Below are positions 31,674 to 43,867 of a stretch of DNA of 43,867 nucleotides, piece after piece. The stretch comes from an uncultured Bacteroidota bacterium (GTDB lineage: Bacteria > Bacteroidota > Bacteroidia > 2-12-FULL-35-15): positions 1-43,867 of the forward strand of contig CAIXIP010000084.1 of assembly GCA_903919535.1 (NCBI GenBank). The letters are read 5' to 3'. Position numbers and translations under genes: made by a program. The notes beneath the pieces were generated by a model that made no database searches, was not told the DNA's origin, and was given only the letters and a program-made list of their open reading frames with translations. Every line of letters begins with the position of its first letter. The stretch's first letter is position 1.

Positions 31674-32894
31674 ATGGCAATACAAGCAAATAATAATTCT
31701 TCAAAACCTATTAAGGATATCAAACTTAATTCCCTTTTGGAGATCACCAAAGCTATCAACCATAATTTTTCTACTGAACAAATTCTCGCAATTTTTAAAG
31801 AGGTTCTTGAAACACAATTAAATATCGGGAAACTCGTATTATTCAGCCACAATAATGGATGGAAATGCATTTTAAAATATGGCGTTGGAGACGAATACAA
31901 TGACATAGATGTTGAGCGAGATCTTTCACCAATTGATGAGATAGGGACAATAAATTTTTCGAAGAAAACACTAAATAAATCATTTGAAATTGTAATTCCT
32001 GTTTTTCATAAATCTCAAGCGTTAGCTTATTTACTTATTGGCGACCTGGAAGACAAAATGGAAGTAAGTCCTGCTATTAAGCATTTACCATTTGTCCAGA
32101 CCCTAACCAGTATAATAGTTGTTGCTATTGAGAATAAAAAATTAGCTAAAGAAAATATTCGTCAGGCCGCGATCAAAAAAGAATTGGAGTTAGCATCTGA
32201 AATGCAGTCTATGCTATTTCCTTCTTCACTACCAAATGATAAGAAACTGGACGTTGCAGCTTATTATTTGCCCCATCAGCAAGTAGGCGGGGATTACTAT
32301 GATTTTATCTGGCTGAATGAAAATGAATGCGCCTTTTGTGTTGCTGATGTTTCCGGCAAAGGCATTGCAGCTGCGCTGCTAATGTCGAATTTTCAAGCAA
32401 ACCTTCGAGTTTTATTTAATCATACTTCCTCTTTAACAGAGCTTGTTCGTGAATTGAACTCTAAAGTTATGGCGAGTGCGAAAGGTGAAAAATTCATTAC
32501 ATTATTCATTGCAAAATATAATTTAGTTACTCGTACCTTGACATACATAAATGCTGCGCATAACCCACCATTACTAGCAACGGGGAATTTTATCAGCACG
32601 TTAAAAATTGGATGTACTGGTTTAGGAATGTTTGACGAGATCGTAAAAATAAAAGAAGGCATCGTCAATATTACTCCTGAGTCAAGAATAATTTGCTATA
32701 CAGATGGACTTGTTGAATTAGAAAATGATAGTAAAGAAGACTTTGGAATTGAAGGGTTAAAAGACCTTGTAAGAAACAATTCTGACTTAAATATGAATAG
32801 CTTAAATAAGTTAATTATGGAAACCTTAATTAACTATAAACAGAAGCAACCATATATTGATGATATTGCTTTGTTTAGCTTAAGAATGCATTAA
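31674..32894 (+). CDS. SpoIIE/RsbU-type PP2C serine phosphatase with GAF-like N-terminus
   Basis: The 406-residue protein has an N-terminal sensor-like region of about 160 residues resembling a GAF domain (LLEITKAINHNFSTEQILAI at its start), a short helical linker (KKELELASEMQSMLFP), and a PP2C-type phosphatase domain with the metal-binding aspartates in VGGDYYDF (D207, D210) and ADVSGKG (D225), then NAAHNPPLL and YTDGLVE. Such phosphatases usually act on phosphorylated anti-sigma antagonists, but no partner gene is adjacent. The ATG at 31674 is preferred over an in-frame TTG at 31620. Its TAA overlaps that of the convergent ligase gene. Confidence 0.9.
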   Translation: MAIQANNNSSKPIKDIKLNSLLEITKAINHNFSTEQILAIFKEVLETQLNIGKLVLFSHNNGWKCILKYGVGDEYNDIDVERDLSPIDEIGTINFSKKTLNKSFEIVIPVFHKSQALAYLLIGDLEDKMEVSPAIKHLPFVQTLTSIIVVAIENKKLAKENIRQAAIKKELELASEMQSMLFPSSLPNDKKLDVAAYYLPHQQVGGDYYDFIWLNENECAFCVADVSGKGIAAALLMSNFQANLRVLFNHTSSLTELVRELNSKVMASAKGEKFITLFIAKYNLVTRTLTYINAAHNPPLLATGNFISTLKIGCTGLGMFDEIVKIKEGIVNITPESRIICYTDGLVELENDSKEDFGIEGLKDLVRNNSDLNMNSLNKLIMETLINYKQKQPYIDDIALFSLRMH

Positions 32895-34333
32895 TTTTCT
32901 GTAATGCTTTTTTCCTCACCTCTGTCTTTATGATAAATATCTATTGCAACAATCATTGCAATAAAACCCCAAAATGGGACAGACGCTTTATCTGTATCCA
33001 AGAAATTATTTAAAGCACCATGAACAATATAGGTAACAAGTCCAAGAATAGTAACTAATAAAAGTTTCTTCATTTCATAATCTTTTATGGAATAATACAA
33101 CCTAAATGCAGTGGATAAAACAGTTAGTAGAATGGCAATAAAAGTTATCGGACCTAGCAATCCTGACTCACTTAATGGACCAAGGTATTCACTATGTGCA
33201 TTTCCCTTATCTCCTTTATTAGTACTAATTATTGTTTTCTCACTAGCGTGTTGGAAAGGAGCATACTGAAAACTATATGTACCAGGACCATATCCTAATA
33301 TTGGTTTGGTTTCAAACATCCGCAATGCACAACTCCAACGATTCAAACGCTCAACGTTTGATGCATCTGTAGAAATATTAGAGATTGATTCAATATGTTT
33401 ATTAAAATCCTGAGATGCATCTTGGCGATTCGATTCGAGCTTTAAAATTATATCAGCTCGAAAAACAAAAACCAGAATAATAACTACTGTTAACCCATAC
33501 ATTAAAGTGCGGAATTTAATACGAAGTAATAATATAATGTATACAATAAGTGCAACAGCTAAACTTAACCAAGCAGCTCGTGTATAGGAAAAAATTAAAG
33601 CAACAATAAAAACAATAAAAAACAATATTGCTGTTATGCGGACCCGGAGTGAGTATTTTTTGTTTAGAGTAAAAAACAAAAGCACAGGAAAAAACATTGC
33701 AAGCATTGCACCATATATTGTATGATCATTGTAAAATGGGGACATTACATAATTTGCAGGCTGTTCTCCAAAATCTAATAAATAGTGATTATATAAGGTG
33801 TAAAAAATAATTAATGTGAAAGGGATTATATATAGCCAAATATATTTTTTAATGTTTGAGTAGTTTTTAAATAATTGCGTGCAGAGGAAATAAAAAACAA
33901 TAACGAACCACAAGCGCGACAATAAAAATTTAAATGAAACAACTGGCATTTGACTAGTAATACTAGTAATTAGAATCCAAACCAAGTTTAAGATAATGGC
34001 AATCGTAATTGGATGATTCATTAATTTTGTGTCGATAGAACTATGATTGATCTGCTTCAAAATAAAGATCATCATAATTCCAAATATTATTGGCTCTGTT
34101 GGTAAGCTCAAGCCAAAGCCTTCATCAAAATTTTGAAGATTAACAGCCAAAGGTGTTAAAAAAACAACAAGTAAAATAAGTTTATCCAAGGAAAATATGG
34201 CAAGGAGCACTATTAATAATGCAGCCGGAAATAAATTAAAATAATAATAATTGTAGTATATACAGGTGGCATTAATTAAGATAAATGCAACACTCAAAAT
34301 ATAAACCCAAATTATGTTTTTCTTCTCTAACAA
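32891..34333 (-). CDS. O-antigen ligase/polymerase family membrane protein (Wzy_C)
   Basis: The 480-residue protein has about twelve hydrophobic segments and one large periplasmic loop (about residues 300-390) containing GYGPGTYSFQYAPF and NAHSEYLGPLSESGLLG, the signature of the RfaL/Wzy_C family. Members either ligate O-polysaccharide to lipid A core or polymerise repeat units; sequence alone does not tell which. The histidine in NAHSEYL is conserved in the family. It starts 12 bases after the downstream Wzz gene and is probably cotranscribed with it. The last bases overlap the end of the convergent phosphatase gene. Confidence 0.9.
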   Translation of the reverse strand: MLEKKNIIWVYILSVAFILINATCIYYNYYYFNLFPAALLIVLLAIFSLDKLILLVVFLTPLAVNLQNFDEGFGLSLPTEPIIFGIMMIFILKQINHSSIDTKLMNHPITIAIILNLVWILITSITSQMPVVSFKFLLSRLWFVIVFYFLCTQLFKNYSNIKKYIWLYIIPFTLIIFYTLYNHYLLDFGEQPANYVMSPFYNDHTIYGAMLAMFFPVLLFFTLNKKYSLRVRITAILFFIVFIVALIFSYTRAAWLSLAVALIVYIILLLRIKFRTLMYGLTVVIILVFVFRADIILKLESNRQDASQDFNKHIESISNISTDASNVERLNRWSCALRMFETKPILGYGPGTYSFQYAPFQHASEKTIISTNKGDKGNAHSEYLGPLSESGLLGPITFIAILLTVLSTAFRLYYSIKDYEMKKLLLVTILGLVTYIVHGALNNFLDTDKASVPFWGFIAMIVAIDIYHKDRGEEKSITEN

Positions 34334-34345
34334 TTTTTTAAAAAA

Positions 34346-35302
34346 TTACTGAATTATTCTTTTTCTGTAATCGCGTGCAACAAGAAGCAAATATAAAAAC
34401 AGGTTGGTAGAAACCAATGAAATTAAAACAATTAACCAACGTACAGGATAATCCTTTTTATCTGACGGGTATGGAGCAGTAACAATACTTGTATAAGTAA
34501 GCTCCTTATTCATATCCTTCCAAACATTATCATATTCTATTTTAATAGTATTGTAAGCTGATAAGGAGGAATTATAATAAGCCATTTTTTCATAATATTC
34601 TCCTCCTTTTTCTTCTAAATTTCGCATCATTACATCAAGATCTTTAAGATTTCCACTTCCCTTTCCGCTACTTAAAACTTTAACATATCCTTTAATTACT
34701 TCTTTTGCCTGAGTTCCATAATCCAAAATCTGATACTTCACACGTAATTCTACAAGATCTGCATTTAAAGAATCTAACTGACGCTTTTTCAAATTCAATT
34801 GATTTGCTTCAACAACTAATACCTCTTGTGTTTTTTCTCGCTGTAAATTACGAGCCTTAAGATTCAGAGCATTTATAATTTCATTTACCATATCACAAGC
34901 AACTTGTGGGTCTGAATCCATTGCCTTTATTTCTACAGATTGATATTTTGTTGCACTAGTAAAAATGTTGGATTCATACATTTTAATTAATGCTGCACGA
35001 TATGATTTTGCCGTAGAATCAATCTCGTATCGTTCTATTAAGTTAAACTTTTTGATAATATGATTTCGGATGTCTGCGGATTCCAATAGCTGAATCATCT
35101 GCTCTGACTGACTCTCACCTGAATATGGAGTAATGTTAGATGGGTAAACAATTGCAAATGATTTATATTTTGGCTTAATAAAAAATTCGTTAGAAAAAAT
35201 TACTGCACAGACTACTGCAATAACAGAAACAACTACAAATTGTTTTTTCCAGGTTACGAGTAGTTGTAAAAAATAAAAATTACTTTTAGTGTATTCTTCC
35301 AT
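34346..35302 (-). CDS. Wzz-type polysaccharide chain-length regulator (second copy)
   Basis: This 318-residue protein has the Wzz topology: a membrane helix near residues 21-40, a periplasmic region with predicted coiled coil (about 165-245), and a second membrane helix near residues 288-307 after the YPVRWLIVLISL motif. It resembles the gene just upstream and shares its YP(S/A)(D/E)KK-YPVRWLIVL segment, so the two are paralogs. Wzz proteins set O-antigen or capsule chain length; no kinase domain is present. The ATG (35300-35302) is a natural start, yet the frame is open for 59 further codons up to the TGA of the upstream paralog. Confidence 0.85.
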   Translation of the reverse strand: MEEYTKSNFYFLQLLVTWKKQFVVVSVIAVVCAVIFSNEFFIKPKYKSFAIVYPSNITPYSGESQSEQMIQLLESADIRNHIIKKFNLIERYEIDSTAKSYRAALIKMYESNIFTSATKYQSVEIKAMDSDPQVACDMVNEIINALNLKARNLQREKTQEVLVVEANQLNLKKRQLDSLNADLVELRVKYQILDYGTQAKEVIKGYVKVLSSGKGSGNLKDLDVMMRNLEEKGGEYYEKMAYYNSSLSAYNTIKIEYDNVWKDMNKELTYTSIVTAPYPSDKKDYPVRWLIVLISLVSTNLFLYLLLVARDYRKRIIQ

Positions 35303-35479
35303 TTTATTAGGTGTTACTTTGTCGACAATTTTATTTGGTATTACTCTATCCTCAATGATAGTTGATGTTTCTTTTTTATCGACAATTTTATTTGGTATTA
35401 TATTGTCAATTATTGTTAATGCCTTATTCCATGTGTTACTTGCATTCGTAAAATTAAAATCAGGGTTTGGACCTTGCAG
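35303..35479 (-). other. 59 open codons joining two Wzz genes in one frame
   Basis: Between the TGA of the upstream Wzz gene (35480-35482) and the ATG of the next (35300-35302) the same frame has no stop. Its translation starts LQGPNPDFNFTNASNTW and is hydrophilic. It contains a perfect 22-bp direct repeat (35322-35343 and 35379-35400, a 57-bp period) encoding IPNKIVD twice, and a third degenerate TPNK just before the ATG. Both membrane termini are cytosolic in Wzz, so a linker here would fit topology. No start codon is in frame inside it. Confidence 0.7.
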
Positions 35480-36496
35480 TCATTTGGCTTCCTGTTTTGT
35501 TAGTTTTCCGAAAATTATTAAAATTATTATAGTAATTATAAGCGATGACATTGTTGAAAGCAAAACGATTAGCCATCTAACAGGATAAGTTTTCTTCTCC
35601 GCAGGGTACGCTTTACTAACAACAAATTTTTGAGGAAGAATTTGCTCTGCATTTACTTTAGCTTCCTCGTATTTTGTTTTTAAATTAGTAATTACCTTAT
35701 CCTGTAAAGCCAAATTATCTCGTAATGAAACATATCTGCTTCCATATTTTGCAAGCACTTGTAATTTTTCATCCAATGCTTTCATAGCACGTTGATCACC
35801 TTTAGCTAATGCAATATTATATTGTTGAATGGTTCTTTCTGTTTGTGATTCATAGTCATAAACACCATAACTATTAATTACTTTGATAGAATCATTTAAT
35901 GCGTTTAAGTCTTCAACTTTGTTAAGATAAGCTCTTTCAACAATTTTCAAAACCTCTAAAGCTCTTCCATGTTGAATTTTTATTTTAACAGAATCAAGGA
36001 GGTTGGCAATGTCGTTTGCCATATCGGAAGCTATTTTGGGGTCGCTATCCAGCACATCAATTTTAACTGACATATACTCAGTTAGTTTAAAGTTGATATT
36101 ATCAGAATATATATTGTACAGCTTGGTGTTTTTTAATTTATCATTATCCTTAATGCCATAATGTTTCATCAAATTATATTTTTCGCAAATTCGAGAACGG
36201 ATGTCATTTGAGTTAAGTATCTGCAACATCTGTTCAGCATCTTCCTCTTCCCCAAATCGTAAAAGATCGTCCTTGGAGGTGTTTACCTCAGCAAGAACAG
36301 AATTTGAAATAGAATTTGTAGTAGCTGGAAATAATATAACAGTCGATTTATATCTATCAGAAAGGGTTAACGAAACAATGCTAGAAATGACTATTGCTAA
36401 AAAGCCAACAATTGCAAGCTGTTTCCACCAATAGGTTATAAAATAAATCACATTCAATGAGTCAAATTCATCTGATTTGGAATCTTTTTTGTTCAT
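35480..36496 (-). CDS. Wzz-type polysaccharide chain-length regulator (first copy)
   Basis: This 338-residue protein has a membrane helix near residues 27-47, a long periplasmic domain with a coiled-coil stretch (about 175-290), and a second membrane helix near 308-330 after YPVRWLIVLLST. It fits the Wzz/polysaccharide co-polymerase family without a tyrosine-kinase domain. It has its own -7 element upstream, after the flippase gene. It ends TKQEAK-TGA, and the frame continues open beyond the TGA into the paralog downstream. It could be a genuinely complete protein or the first half of a former fusion. Confidence 0.85.
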   Translation of the reverse strand: MNKKDSKSDEFDSLNVIYFITYWWKQLAIVGFLAIVISSIVSLTLSDRYKSTVILFPATTNSISNSVLAEVNTSKDDLLRFGEEEDAEQMLQILNSNDIRSRICEKYNLMKHYGIKDNDKLKNTKLYNIYSDNINFKLTEYMSVKIDVLDSDPKIASDMANDIANLLDSVKIKIQHGRALEVLKIVERAYLNKVEDLNALNDSIKVINSYGVYDYESQTERTIQQYNIALAKGDQRAMKALDEKLQVLAKYGSRYVSLRDNLALQDKVITNLKTKYEEAKVNAEQILPQKFVVSKAYPAEKKTYPVRWLIVLLSTMSSLIITIIILIIFGKLTKQEAK

Positions 36497-36572: not shown

Positions 36573-38018
36573 TTATCCATATTTGAAAACACGAAGCAAA
36601 GATTTTACTCGTATTATTCCAATAAAAAAGGCCCATACCCCACAACAAGAAACCATTATAGCAAAATTTACTATCCAATAAAAATGTAACATTTTTGATC
36701 CATAATTAATTGCAATTACTCCTATGGCAAACATTATTAAAGTGCTGATTAACCTGTAGTTTACACGGAATTTAAATATCCTTTGCGCTATTACTACCTG
36801 AATGCCGGCAGTTAAAAACTGTGTTGTCATGCTGGATATTGCTGAACCAAAAGCTTCCATCTTTCTGATCAGAATTACATTTAATGTGATATTCAACAAC
36901 ATACCAAAAGCAGCCATAATATTAAGTTGCTTCATATTGCCATTGGCAGTAAGTAGTGTACCAAAAATATAAGTTGTTGAAACAGCAATAAAACTTAACA
37001 TCAACAGTCCAAATATTCTTGCTGATTCTTCCACATGTTTAGGGTAGAGCATCCCCATCAATTCTGTGCTATAAAAAACACAACCAACCCCAATAACTAT
37101 GGCTGGCGTAAGCAAAAGGGTACTTATCAATTTCACCAAAGGCTCAACAGATTCTTTGTATTTTAACATTCTTGAAAATATCGGCAAAAGCATGCCTGCT
37201 GTTAAAAAAGCAATCATGTTAGTAGCATCTAACAAACGAAATGCTTGAGCATAAATACCTGACTGCACATCGCCAACCCCTTTGGGCAATAACCTTTCAA
37301 TCATTACAGGATCTATTCGATTATAAAAAGACATCAATAGAGTTAAAATAGCAAAAGGCAAACTCTTTTTTAATATCATTAACGAGAATGGAAAATTCCA
37401 TGTCAATTTAAATGTTTGTGTTTTACCCAGAATAATTATGAAAGCAATTATTGCTGTTAAGGAATAGGAAAAAGTTTGAGCATAAACAAAATACATTATT
37501 CCATCAGGCCCTTTGAATGCACCCATTCTTAGCAAAAAAATGCACAGTATAATTAAAATACTTCGATCTAAAACAGAAACAATGGAATCGGTTTTAAAGA
37601 AATGGAGACCTGCTAAATTAGAACGCAAATAATTAATAAAAAACAGCAAAAACATATTAAACCCTTGTACCAGCAAAAGTTTCATTAAACGTGTATCATA
37701 ACCGATCAAAAAACCGGAGATTATAACTACCGATATATATATGACCGCAAGTATTAGTTTTAATGTAAATAGGCTAGAAAAATGCTTTGTGAGAAGGTGA
37801 CTATTTTGGGCAATATTCTTATTATTAAAATTGGTAATCCCGAAATCAAGAATGATTGTAAGAATGAAGCAAAAATTGAAAATCACAAAATAAATTCCAT
37901 AATTTGCTGCTTCAACTTGATTTTGCACCGCTCTATCAATACCCAAAATATAAATAGGTTTGATAAGCAAATTCAAAAACAAAATTAAACCAAGATTGGT
38001 CAGAAATTTTTTGTGCAT
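36573..38018 (-). CDS. Wzx-like polysaccharide flippase (MOP superfamily)
   Basis: The 481-residue protein is hydrophobic throughout with about twelve to fourteen membrane helices and no soluble domain. It fits the polysaccharide-biosynthesis/Wzx branch of the MOP superfamily, which moves undecaprenyl-linked oligosaccharides across the inner membrane. A conserved loop with YNRIDPVMIERLLPKGVGDVQSGIYAQAFR (around residue 230; quoted in parts: YNRIDPVMIE, GIYAQAFRLLD) is typical of this branch. The ATG is chosen because it is the first in frame and lies four bases after a -7-like element. It is transcribed divergently from the glycosyltransferase gene. Confidence 0.88.
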   Translation of the reverse strand: MHKKFLTNLGLILFLNLLIKPIYILGIDRAVQNQVEAANYGIYFVIFNFCFILTIILDFGITNFNNKNIAQNSHLLTKHFSSLFTLKLILAVIYISVVIISGFLIGYDTRLMKLLLVQGFNMFLLFFINYLRSNLAGLHFFKTDSIVSVLDRSILIILCIFLLRMGAFKGPDGIMYFVYAQTFSYSLTAIIAFIIILGKTQTFKLTWNFPFSLMILKKSLPFAILTLLMSFYNRIDPVMIERLLPKGVGDVQSGIYAQAFRLLDATNMIAFLTAGMLLPIFSRMLKYKESVEPLVKLISTLLLTPAIVIGVGCVFYSTELMGMLYPKHVEESARIFGLLMLSFIAVSTTYIFGTLLTANGNMKQLNIMAAFGMLLNITLNVILIRKMEAFGSAISSMTTQFLTAGIQVVIAQRIFKFRVNYRLISTLIMFAIGVIAINYGSKMLHFYWIVNFAIMVSCCGVWAFFIGIIRVKSLLRVFKYG

Positions 38019-39776: not shown

Positions 39777-41039
39777 TTATTCGCTCTTATCATCATTTTG
39801 AGATTTGAATGCATCAAAATCAAATGTGAGTGTAAATCGTAATGTGTTTTCGAGAGGATTCTTTTGTTTTGTTGGAATCAAATATGCAAAATCAAGACCG
39901 AAGACATTGTATTTAACTCCCGCTCCAATTGTGAAATATTGACGATTTCCTTTTTTAGGATGCTCATAAAAATAACCAGCACGTATAGCAAACAATTTAT
40001 TGTACCAGTATTCCATACCAACAGAATAATTTATTTCATGTAGCTCTTCTTTTCCTCCACCTGGTGCATCATTAAAAGAACCAAACATACCTTCAACAAT
40101 CCCTCTGTTTGGATCCTTACCATATTTAATAACTGGATCACCGTTGGCATCATATTTTATCTGATTGGTCTCTACCCCATTCGTATCAACAACATGAGCA
40201 TAAACAGGAGGTGTTGGAACCAATAATTTATTTGCATCTACCATAAAAGCAACACTGTTATAATCATCCAACTGCATCGTTAACGAAGCTCCTAATCGCA
40301 AATTAATAGGAATAAAGTCAGCATTGTTTTTACCATTTCTATCAGAATAAGACATCTTAGCACCGATATTCGATATGTTCAATCCTACTCCTACGATTCC
40401 TTTTTTATCGCCAATTTTAATTTTATCTTTTCTGTACAATGCCGATATATCAACAGCAATAGATCTTCCTGCATGTGTTCCAGCACCTTCAACAACTGTT
40501 CCTCCAGTTAAGTTTGAATTAATATAGCGAACAGCACCTCCAACTGAAAAATTATTGGAAAGTTTTGTTGCATAAGCGACATCAATTGCAAATTCATTAG
40601 GACGAAACTGGCCTATTACAGTACCATTCGCATCGGTAAATGTAATATCTCCCAATGAAAAATAACGTAGTGATGCTCCTATCGATCCTCTCTTTTTTGT
40701 TTTGTAATAACCTGATAAATAAGCAAGATTAATATCCGGAACCAATGCTCTAAGCCAAGGTGTATATGAAACACCAATACCCATTTTTTTATCTGCAAAT
40801 GCAAGCTTTGAAGGGTTCCAGTGAATTGAATTAACATCAGTAGAGGAAGCGCAACCAACATCTCCCATTCCTCCTGCTCTTGAATCAGGCGATATCACTA
40901 AAAAGGGAACAGCGGTAGTTATTGTGTTCAGTTGATCAGCAATTGTTTTATAATCAACCTGTGCTTTTATGTTAGTTCCAACAAGTAAAGCTAAAGCAAG
41001 CGTGTAAAAATAGTTGCTATGTGCTCGAAAATCAGTCAT
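39777..41039 (-). CDS. porV: Type IX secretion outer-membrane protein PorV
   Basis: PorV is an outer-membrane FadL-like barrel that collects T9SS substrates from the translocon and delivers them to the PorU sortase. The 420-residue protein has a signal peptide (about 1-26, ending IKAQ), the strongly conserved LVISPDSRAGGMGDVGCASS near residue 47, NSIHWNPSKLAF near 70, and repeated beta-strand segments ending in an aromatic-rich C-terminal strand (LRFTLTFDFDAF). It directly follows porU, 32 bases downstream, as in many T9SS-containing genomes. No secretion-pore gene is in the window. Confidence 0.94.
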   Translation of the reverse strand: MTDFRAHSNYFYTLALALLVGTNIKAQVDYKTIADQLNTITTAVPFLVISPDSRAGGMGDVGCASSTDVNSIHWNPSKLAFADKKMGIGVSYTPWLRALVPDINLAYLSGYYKTKKRGSIGASLRYFSLGDITFTDANGTVIGQFRPNEFAIDVAYATKLSNNFSVGGAVRYINSNLTGGTVVEGAGTHAGRSIAVDISALYRKDKIKIGDKKGIVGVGLNISNIGAKMSYSDRNGKNNADFIPINLRLGASLTMQLDDYNSVAFMVDANKLLVPTPPVYAHVVDTNGVETNQIKYDANGDPVIKYGKDPNRGIVEGMFGSFNDAPGGGKEELHEINYSVGMEYWYNKLFAIRAGYFYEHPKKGNRQYFTIGAGVKYNVFGLDFAYLIPTKQKNPLENTLRFTLTFDFDAFKSQNDDKSE

Positions 41040-41071
41040 TCTTTTTTTATTTGGGGTTGCTAAATTACTAA

Positions 41072-43867
41072 TTAATTTAAAATTACAAGTTTTTCATATT
41101 TTTCTGCCGTTGCTCCGTCACTTGTTTTTACTTTTATTCGATAGATGTATACTCCTTTACCAATCTTATCTCCAAAATCATCTCTTCCATCCCACTCAAT
41201 AGGATTGGAACGGTAACCTTCTGATTGCACAAATTGATTTATATTTTTTATCAGTTTTCCGGAAACCGTAAAAATCTGTAATTCAACATTCAAAAGCTGA
41301 CAACATTGGTTTTGTTCAAAGAAAAACTGTGTTTTTGTTGTAAAAGGATTTGGATAATTTAATACATGACTTAATGCTAATTCAGCTGATTTTGCAACTA
41401 CAAATTCTGTGTATGAATCTGAAGAATTATTATAAACATCCCATGCTTTTATCTTCAAGGTGTGTTTCCCCTCAGAAAGGCCTGAAAAAGGATAGCGAAT
41501 ACTTCCGCTTTTATAACTGTTCAAATCTGCTTGGTAATAATCATTCAACACAACCGAGTTTTCCGTATTCGCATCTAGAGTCGCTATAATATCATGTCCA
41601 ATACCATTTCCAACTGTATTAATACCATTTGCATCTTTAAGGACACAATATAGGTCTGGATTTTCATCTGTCAATCCACCAAAAACAAATTTATTATCAT
41701 TCAAGAACAAATTAACTTCCGGACCCGTAACATCAATCGGAGCGTTGTCATTCGAACCGCCAATTATTATTTTTTCATATGAGCCATTAGCATCCACTGA
41801 GCCATTTTCGGCATAATAACTGATCCGCCCAATCCCGTATTGATATGCAATATCTTTAGGAACAATAAATGAAAACTTAAAGAATCCATTGGTAACACTT
41901 ACTTTTCCTTTGTATAAAATGTTTTTTTGAAGCCCGAAGGTGAATGGCGGACTACCAGTTATTCCATCATTTGAAAGAGTTGTAATGTTTTGTGGTTTAT
42001 CATAAATTGTTGGATAAAGTACACCATTATAATTTGTTAGAATAACCCCGTTTCGATCTCTAACAAATCCACTTATCGTCATAGATGACAATGCTTTTAA
42101 AGTATCCAAATTCGAAGAAGTGATTCCCACAGAATTAATAGAATCTGTAGATACGCTATCTTGGGGATAAGATAACTTTAATGCCGGATCACCTAAAAGT
42201 GTAAAGTTTCGACTATTTACTGAATTTCCACCTGCTTGAGTTTTCATATATTTGAAAAGATCACCTAGCGCAGGCATTTTACCATTTACGGGCACGAAGG
42301 CTGCTTTATAAAAATCTTTATTCAAATAAAAATTCGGACTAGCAAACACCAATCGAACTGTCGTAAACAAAGCTATTCCACCACCATTCGGATTCAGAAA
42401 AACATACTCCCCGGCCGAAGTTCTTTCCGGATCATCAAACCTGCTAAATTCACAAGTTGCTGTGAAAAATAATGGAAGATTATTTTTATTATTCCATGAA
42501 TTAATTTGGGATACTTCTATTATTCGCTCATGTGCCAAGCCAACTTCTCCTCCATGGCCAGTGTAATTTAAAACCAAGCACCCTTTCTCAACACGCTTGT
42601 TTATTGCCTCTGAAACAGTTGGGTAACGATCTCCGCCAGGTGTTGCCACTTGCTGATAAGAATCTAAATAAATTTTATCAACATTAATATTATTATAGGA
42701 TGTATCTACCAACGTTGCTAATTTGTTTGCATCAGAAATGTGAAGATCACCATCTTCATCGTCAGCAATAAAACAAACAGTATTCCGCCAATCGCCAAAA
42801 GGAGAACCTGATACTTGACTAGTACAGGAGTTGGATGTTATTGCAGAAGAAGAAAAACCAGTTTTAGAATAATTGAACACTTTACTAATAGCAGATTGAG
42901 CTTCAGCTTTAGTTTTTACAGGGAATCGACCTACTCCTAAATCTAATGCATCATTGTTCCAAACACCTTCATTATCATCCAACAAACCATAAAAATCATC
43001 TGATACGTATGACGATGTTGACACAGTTGAGTTCTCTGATTGATAGGTTGGTATATAATTAGTATTACTTAAACCGAAACGGGTTTTATTATCATATGAA
43101 CCATCGCCAAACAACAATAAATATTTGGGCATTTCTGATGTCGTTGTTGCTCTGTCATAAAACATTTTTACAAAATCGCGTATTGCAGAAATATCCTGAG
43201 AACCGGAAGAAAACTCATTATAAATTTGTTGTGGAGTTACAACTATAGTTGATAAGGTGTCTTTTGTTTCGTGAAACGCTGCAAGTTGTAATGCTTCATT
43301 ATAAAAATTCGGATGAACGACAATGATAAAATCTTTGTTTGTTATCGCATGCAAATCCTGATTTAAAACTTTTCCTGAGGCTGACGGAGAAAGGAATGCC
43401 GTTCCGGTAAAAGCCACAAATTGTTTTAAGGAATCTGCAGGCAAAACAAATTGATAATCTGAAGCAGAAGGATTAGTTAAAGATTGAAGTTTAATATTAT
43501 ATAGATCTGTTATATCCCATATTTCAATTGGAAAGTTACTTGAAACATTATACTCCGCTACATTACCGCTTCCAACAGATTTCGCATCTCTGAAATTCAT
43601 TTGAGAACCATTCATGATAAGTTGTCGTCTTGCATTTACTTCAATATAATCAAGCCAAGCAATAGCATCAGTTGTTTGTTTTGTGATATTTACAGTAAGT
43701 GATGATGATGTTGGATTAAATGAGTAACAAGCTGATGAAATTTTTGCGTAATCATCGTATGCACTTCCCGAAACTTCAGGAATTGCAAGTAAAACATTTC
43801 CAGATTGGCTACTTATGGAATAAAACCCTTTATCTACTTCACCGAACCCTTTATCTACTTCATCAAC
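41072..43867 (-). CDS. porU: Type IX secretion sortase PorU (N-terminus beyond the window)
   Basis: PorU is a C25-family cysteine endopeptidase that removes the C-terminal signal of T9SS cargo and joins the cargo to anionic LPS at the cell surface. The frame stays open from the stop to the window edge (931 codons); an internal Met at 43615 is not the start, because the conserved LDYIEVNARRQL lies upstream of it. Catalytic residues: His in NYTGHGGEVG (codon 42554-42556) and Cys in FTATCEFSRF (codon 42452-42454). The protein ends with a T9SS-type C-terminal domain including NYPNPFTTKTQFFF and GKGVYIYRI. About two hundred N-terminal residues are probably missing. Confidence 0.94.
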   Translation of the reverse strand, partial: VDEVDKGFGEVDKGFYSISSQSGNVLLAIPEVSGSAYDDYAKISSACYSFNPTSSSLTVNITKQTTDAIAWLDYIEVNARRQLIMNGSQMNFRDAKSVGSGNVAEYNVSSNFPIEIWDITDLYNIKLQSLTNPSASDYQFVLPADSLKQFVAFTGTAFLSPSASGKVLNQDLHAITNKDFIIVVHPNFYNEALQLAAFHETKDTLSTIVVTPQQIYNEFSSGSQDISAIRDFVKMFYDRATTTSEMPKYLLLFGDGSYDNKTRFGLSNTNYIPTYQSENSTVSTSSYVSDDFYGLLDDNEGVWNNDALDLGVGRFPVKTKAEAQSAISKVFNYSKTGFSSSAITSNSCTSQVSGSPFGDWRNTVCFIADDEDGDLHISDANKLATLVDTSYNNINVDKIYLDSYQQVATPGGDRYPTVSEAINKRVEKGCLVLNYTGHGGEVGLAHERIIEVSQINSWNNKNNLPLFFTATCEFSRFDDPERTSAGEYVFLNPNGGGIALFTTVRLVFASPNFYLNKDFYKAAFVPVNGKMPALGDLFKYMKTQAGGNSVNSRNFTLLGDPALKLSYPQDSVSTDSINSVGITSSNLDTLKALSSMTISGFVRDRNGVILTNYNGVLYPTIYDKPQNITTLSNDGITGSPPFTFGLQKNILYKGKVSVTNGFFKFSFIVPKDIAYQYGIGRISYYAENGSVDANGSYEKIIIGGSNDNAPIDVTGPEVNLFLNDNKFVFGGLTDENPDLYCVLKDANGINTVGNGIGHDIIATLDANTENSVVLNDYYQADLNSYKSGSIRYPFSGLSEGKHTLKIKAWDVYNNSSDSYTEFVVAKSAELALSHVLNYPNPFTTKTQFFFEQNQCCQLLNVELQIFTVSGKLIKNINQFVQSEGYRSNPIEWDGRDDFGDKIGKGVYIYRIKVKTSDGATAEKYEKLVILN
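43824..43865 (-). repeat. 21-bp tandem repeat inside porU
   Basis: Two adjacent 21-bp units (43824-43844 and 43845-43865) share their first 18 bases. In the PorU frame they encode VDKGFGE and VDKGFYS-like heptads, so the duplication keeps the frame. It lies at the cut edge and may extend further. Confidence 0.75.

Follow-up and report, generated by a model that had tools for sequence, protein, structure and literature searches.

Viruses and animals provide well-documented examples of stop-codon readthrough that evolution has maintained. A case from within a bacterium is that of phage Q-beta, in which tRNA-Trp reads the leaky UGA of the coat/A1 gene and a product with a longer C-terminus, needed in minor amount, is made. 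From bacterial chromosomes, by contrast, no clear case of maintained readthrough is known once selenocysteine and phage genes are set aside. A 2016 recoding review notes no known organism in which stop readthrough has taken over from RF2 autoregulation (PMC5009743), and a literature search, with most subscription papers outside its reach, returned no report of wzz readthrough, of a joined Wzz pair or of anything similar on a bacterial chromosome. Here we analyse two adjacent wzz genes in a 43,867-nt stretch of DNA from an uncultured Bacteroidota bacterium (the window, taken as a whole), which belongs to a metagenome-assembled genome of 3.87 Mb and 98% completeness. Comparative sequence evidence makes it probable that this pair undergoes programmed UGA readthrough, yielding Wzz1 together with a Wzz1-linker-Wzz2 tandem.

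Organisation of the wzz locus

The upstream gene, wzz1 (35480–36496, minus strand), is an open reading frame with sub-threshold Pfam Wzz similarity that encodes a polysaccharide co-polymerase-like protein of 338 aa and ends in TGA (35480–35482, minus strand), the proposed leaky stop. The gap between this TGA and the ATG of wzz2 is exactly 177 nt in one open frame, forming a stop-free linker of 59 codons (35303–35479, minus strand) that encodes NASNTWNK and contains no in-frame ATG, GTG or TTG; the base directly 3′ of the TGA is C. The second co-polymerase-like gene, wzz2 (34346–35302, minus strand; 318 aa; borderline Pfam Wzz match), has its own conserved ATG at 35302, and the proposed Wzz1-(X)-linker-Wzz2 readthrough product (34346–36496, minus strand) would comprise 716 residues with the UGA counted as one residue. 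The pair is preceded by a wzx-like flippase gene (36573–38018, minus strand; Pfam Polysacc_synt) and followed by a wzy/O-antigen ligase-like gene (32891–34333, minus strand; Pfam Wzy_C).

The coordinates confirm the arrangement described in the original prediction, namely two Wzz-type genes in one frame separated by a single TGA and 59 open codons, and the same arrangement is found in 18 further species with a complete linker. The accompanying estimate that such a gap would arise by chance with a probability below 1–2% was fair, as dinucleotide models give ~1% for 59 stop-free codons, to be multiplied by 1/3 for in-frame placement. Within 427 kb of the genome (285 genes, 165 adjacent same-strand pairs), wzz1/wzz2 is the sole pair with an in-frame stop-free gap of >78 nt. 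Elsewhere in the window (39777–43615, minus strand), two adjacent genes resemble, by eye from their sequence, PorV-type and PorU/C25-peptidase-type proteins of type IX secretion.

Conservation of the junction across the genus

The junction was compared across 36 species of the genus, which are also all the members of the order that were examined. The TGA is present at the end of wzz1 in 20 of the 36 species, one of which (G031) is cut by a contig end, leaving 19 complete linkers. In 19/19 cases, the TGA and the wzz2 ATG are separated by a multiple of three nucleotides, although the distance varies from 72 to 222 nt (24–74 codons) with 17 distinct lengths. No stop was found among the 974 frame-0 codons of these linkers, compared with 107 and 98 stops in frames +1 and +2, and codon usage was best in frame 0 for 18 of the 19. 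The one linker that departs from this codon pattern (G022) is also without the motif and the stem described below, and may represent a decayed, non-functional or chance case. Ten of the 19 linkers contain no ATG, GTG or TTG at all, so that their translation would require passage through the UGA.

In 15 members of the genus, wzz1 ends in TAA or TAG and the spacers are out of frame or stop-bearing, or there is no adjacent wzz2. The remaining species (G007) has a TAA followed by an open in-frame linker of 34 codons and lacks the stem, which suggests either that readthrough was lost recently or that the UAA is itself read through. Open-linker species therefore comprise 20 with TGA and 1 with TAA, while none of the other 15 has TGA (Fisher 3e-9, a value that overstates independence as the species are related). 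Stops and frameshifts, which the original prediction had regarded as the mark of a non-coding linker, are thus present in TAA/TAG lineages only and absent behind the TGA in 19 of 19 linkers.

These patterns bear on the alternative that the linker is a non-coding spacer, open by chance or composition, with the stem-loop serving mRNA stability, processing or translational coupling. The poor conservation of linker amino acids would fit such a spacer, and a post-stop stem-loop could protect or couple operon genes, but the absence of stops, the constant multiple of three across so many lengths, the frame-0 codon usage and the closed spacers of TAA/TAG relatives make it very unlikely. Comparison across the genus instead shows the linker to behave as protein-coding sequence in frame with both genes, with the TGA selectively kept alongside.

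No species of the genus (36 compared) has a sense codon at the position of the TGA, and the wzz2 ATG occupies the same place in every examined member having wzz2. If separate proteins alone were sufficient, the linker would decay, as it has in the TAA/TAG lineages, while if the fusion alone were needed, the stop would mutate to sense, which it did in no species. Joint conservation of a stop and an open linker is, as a pattern among related sequences, the standard comparative signature of programmed readthrough. In a tree of Wzz1 and Wzz2, both deep branches of the genus contain open-linker species, and the open linker seems to be the ancestral condition, lost at least twice, the relevant deep nodes being weak (31–61%).

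The two proteins are ~30% identical, and in other Bacteroidia families wzz1 and wzz2 are separate genes, usually with few bases between them; judged by these comparisons, they are old paralogues that stand as separate genes across much of the class. A single in-frame TGA would also be accounted for by a fused gene that lately acquired a nonsense mutation, by an error of sequencing or assembly, or by a duplicate that was split not long ago. All are highly improbable, because the same TGA, never replaced by a sense codon, and the open linker are common to ~20 independently assembled genomes in which wzz synonymous sites are near saturation, and because in other families the two genes stand apart, with little space between them. 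Among the options raised in the original prediction, these three are consequently set aside, and comparative evidence favours the fourth, stop readthrough producing a tandem Wzz.

Stop codon choice and 3′ context

The use of TGA at the junction stands against a genome background in which only 17 of 285 genes (6%) end in this codon. The base that follows is A or C in 20/20 junctions, compared with 7 of the 17 TGA genes genome-wide, where T follows in 10/17; in E. coli, T after the stop has been reported to favour termination (PMC11126739). The usual codons after the TGA are [A/C]TR-CGG-AAA-CCN. Where +2 encodes Arg, CGG is used in 10 of 11 cases although it makes up 3.6% of Arg codons genome-wide, and the retention of so rare a codon points to constraint on the nucleotides themselves. 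The counterpart of the [AC]TR-CGG-AAA-CC context in the window is CTG-CAA-GGT-CCA (35468–35479, minus strand), which is the same in the nearest relative (G016). Beyond the junction, the motif TGAMTRCGGAAACC has only 4 further matches in the 36 genomes, all within longer ORFs in another frame. By its context, the junction stop is of the putatively leaky kind, in conserved weak-termination surroundings.

The same positions speak to the possibility that ribosomes terminate at the UGA and reinitiate at an adjacent non-AUG codon, which would make the linker an N-terminal extension of Wzz2. Adjoining stops and starts are frequent in bacterial operons, and the ATA, ATT or CTG found after the TGA are weak near-cognate starts. 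The codon in this position is also CTA (4 species) or ACA (G033), however, neither of which is a start; reinitiation has no need for TGA over TAA or TAG; a C, T or G frequently precedes the TGA, so that an overlapping ATGA is not conserved; and the true Wzz2 ATG is kept everywhere. We consider reinitiation to have a small probability. A separate reading suggested by the window alone, an ATGA-overlap start with a +1 frameshift at CCC-TGA, was rejected because the A before the TGA is not conserved across species.

In-frame hopping over the UGA, in place of decoding, would give a product differing by only two residues and is hard to tell from readthrough (PMC5009743). Such bypassing needs matching take-off and landing codons, whereas the codons around the junction (e.g. 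GCC TGA ATA, GAA TGA CTA) show no match across species, and no natural case of stop hopping is known (PMC5009743), which makes it very unlikely here.

Selenocysteine insertion or a reassigned UGA would also place a UGA in frame, and bacterial selenoprotein recoding resembles the proposed readthrough in that an in-frame UGA is passed with the help of a downstream hairpin. It differs in that no Sec machinery was found in the window genome: neither a tRNA-Sec (the best match being a tRNA-Ser) nor SelB was detected above cut-off in this 98% complete genome. Reassignment conflicts with the 17 of 285 genes that end in TGA, with an ordinary RF2 gene that carries the SPF motif and the CTTTGA frameshift, and with a tRNA-Trp anticodon of CCA, no UCA anticodon being present among the tRNAs found. 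The probability of either is negligible.

A downstream stem-loop in most species

A stem starts 10–11 nt past the TGA in 16 loci (e.g. arms CCTACTTT/AAAGTAGG, CCGATTTCAG/CTGAAATTGG and CAACTATCA/TGATAGTTG). The duplex signal has its maximum exactly at +10 (−7.7 kcal/mol) and falls to about −2 by +20. Native arms reached −7.7 compared with −4.7 for arms swapped between species, and the observed sum was reached in 0 of 20,000 permutations, which is not a strict probability given that the species are related. Compensatory pair types with pairing kept were seen at +12 (16/16 loci), +13 (15/16) and +14 (15/16), a count that is fitted to the structure, as the arm-swap test is not, and that was made on hand-anchored arms because, in some rows of the MAFFT alignment after the TGA, the 3′ arm is one column out of place. 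Comparison of the arms thus shows a predicted covarying 3′ stem-loop to be carried by most species. Its placement at +10 to +50, mostly far from the wzz2 ATG and with no T-run after it, is a further point against a role confined to stability, processing or coupling of a non-coding spacer.

The +10 stem-loop is absent from the window genome (G000) and its sister G016, a two-species clade in which only a weak CCA/UGG remnant was observed. The claim for the window itself accordingly rests on frame, TGA and context, and the stem-loop is, as a candidate stimulator, not universal. Readthrough measured with reporters in E. coli showed no correlation with the RNA structure predicted downstream (PMC11126739). 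A mini-hairpin of 4 bp with a GNRA-type loop (GACU-GCAA-GGUC) overlaps the UGA in the window (35470–35481, minus strand); the same sequence is present in G016 and was not seen in other clades.

Outside the genus, a genome from another Bacteroidia family (G071) carries Wzz1-TGA-CTG followed by 58 open in-frame codons and then Wzz2 (C118:14000–17600, with the junction at about 1775–1950 within that stretch). A 7-bp hairpin begins at about +9 in this genome and is not significant alone (z −1.3). No long open linker was found in the four other species of its genus in which the junction was read. This locus may be a second occurrence of the device or may have arisen by chance.

Linker evolution and the predicted fusion protein

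The linker, which is proposed to be flexible and cytosolic and to be made only by readthrough, evolves with a dN/dS of ~0.5–1, such that amino acids change fast and the sequence is weakly constrained while the frame is strictly kept. This combination is as would be expected of a flexible tether; ALTIIDNIIPNK is an example of a linker peptide. In the window, the linker contains direct repeats of PNKIVDK units (35318–35400, minus strand) at spacings of 27 and 57 nt, both multiples of three, which suggests growth by in-frame duplication. Among the TGA species, synonymous differences are lower in the linkers than in the flanking wzz genes (for example, pS 0.14 compared with 0.56–0.62 for G003/G035), which suggests either nucleotide-level constraint that reaches further than the first 50 nt or a composition strongly biased towards A.

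Pfam Wzz scores were 20.1–23.7 bits for Wzz1 and 21.5–25.9 bits for Wzz2 (cut-off 25.5), the value of 25.9 being obtained with the neighbours in frame. An AlphaFold2 model built from an alignment of 19 fusions, with the TGA set to W, contains two PCP modules with terminal helices in each, at a mean pLDDT of only 68. Residues 328–406, between the modules, were modelled with low confidence and are probably disordered. Foldseek searches with the fusion model returned Wzc, WzzE, KpsE and WzzB (E 1e-8 to 2e-5), and each module is accordingly predicted to have the PCP fold with two TM helices. A PDB sequence search with the fusion profile gave no match, nor did a plasmid search.

Proposed mechanism of readthrough

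Under programmed readthrough, most ribosomes would stop at the wzz1 UGA and release Wzz1, while a fraction would read the UGA as a sense codon, near-cognate tRNA-Trp being the most likely decoder, and translate on through the linker and wzz2. Trp is predicted at this position since readthrough of TGA in E. coli nearly always inserts Trp (PMC11126739). The efficiency of this decoding event would yield a set ratio of Wzz1 to the Wzz1-linker-Wzz2 tandem, and translation starting at the wzz2 ATG, which is retained throughout, probably supplies free Wzz2 as well. The linker would join two cytosolic termini, the C-terminus of Wzz1 and the N-terminus of Wzz2, and could therefore place the two subunits side by side in one co-polymerase ring, and we infer that the resulting fixed share of mixed Wzz1/Wzz2 rings would help to set polysaccharide chain length.

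Comparison with known systems

Taken together, the comparative data probably indicate that a chromosomal operon of otherwise ordinary kind in these Bacteroidota carries a dedicated UGA-readthrough signal (UGA, a weak 3′ context and mostly a stem-loop ~9 nt downstream), making a tandem at fixed ratio that would control the composition of the chain-length ring, with G071 perhaps a second occurrence. The junction is represented in many species, has been lost naturally in some and is mostly accompanied by a covarying RNA element, and it offers a ready system for asking how the 70S ribosome passes UGA. It also bears on the polysaccharide question of whether distinct Wzz proteins combine in a single co-polymerase ring to set chain length, and by what means.

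Among described systems, readthrough of the gammaretroviral gag-pol and alphavirus type is alike in having two same-frame ORFs around one conserved stop, a short conserved 3′ context with RNA structure shortly downstream, and a set ratio of short to fused product, which is proposed here. The wzz case differs in that it lies in a bacterial chromosomal operon translated by the 70S ribosome with RF2, and in that its UGA is followed by A or C and by a simple stem-loop that is missing in the clade of the window. The Q-beta coat/A1 gene belongs to an RNA phage, whereas at wzz the proposed extension would comprise an entire further gene, a paralogue that also has a start of its own. With the known Wzz/PCP proteins (WzzB, WzzE, Wzc and KpsE), the products encoded here have in common the wzx-wzz-wzy context and, as predicted, a periplasmic alpha/beta-coil domain with a TM helix on either side, and they differ from them in that two different Wzz would be joined by a proposed readthrough linker.
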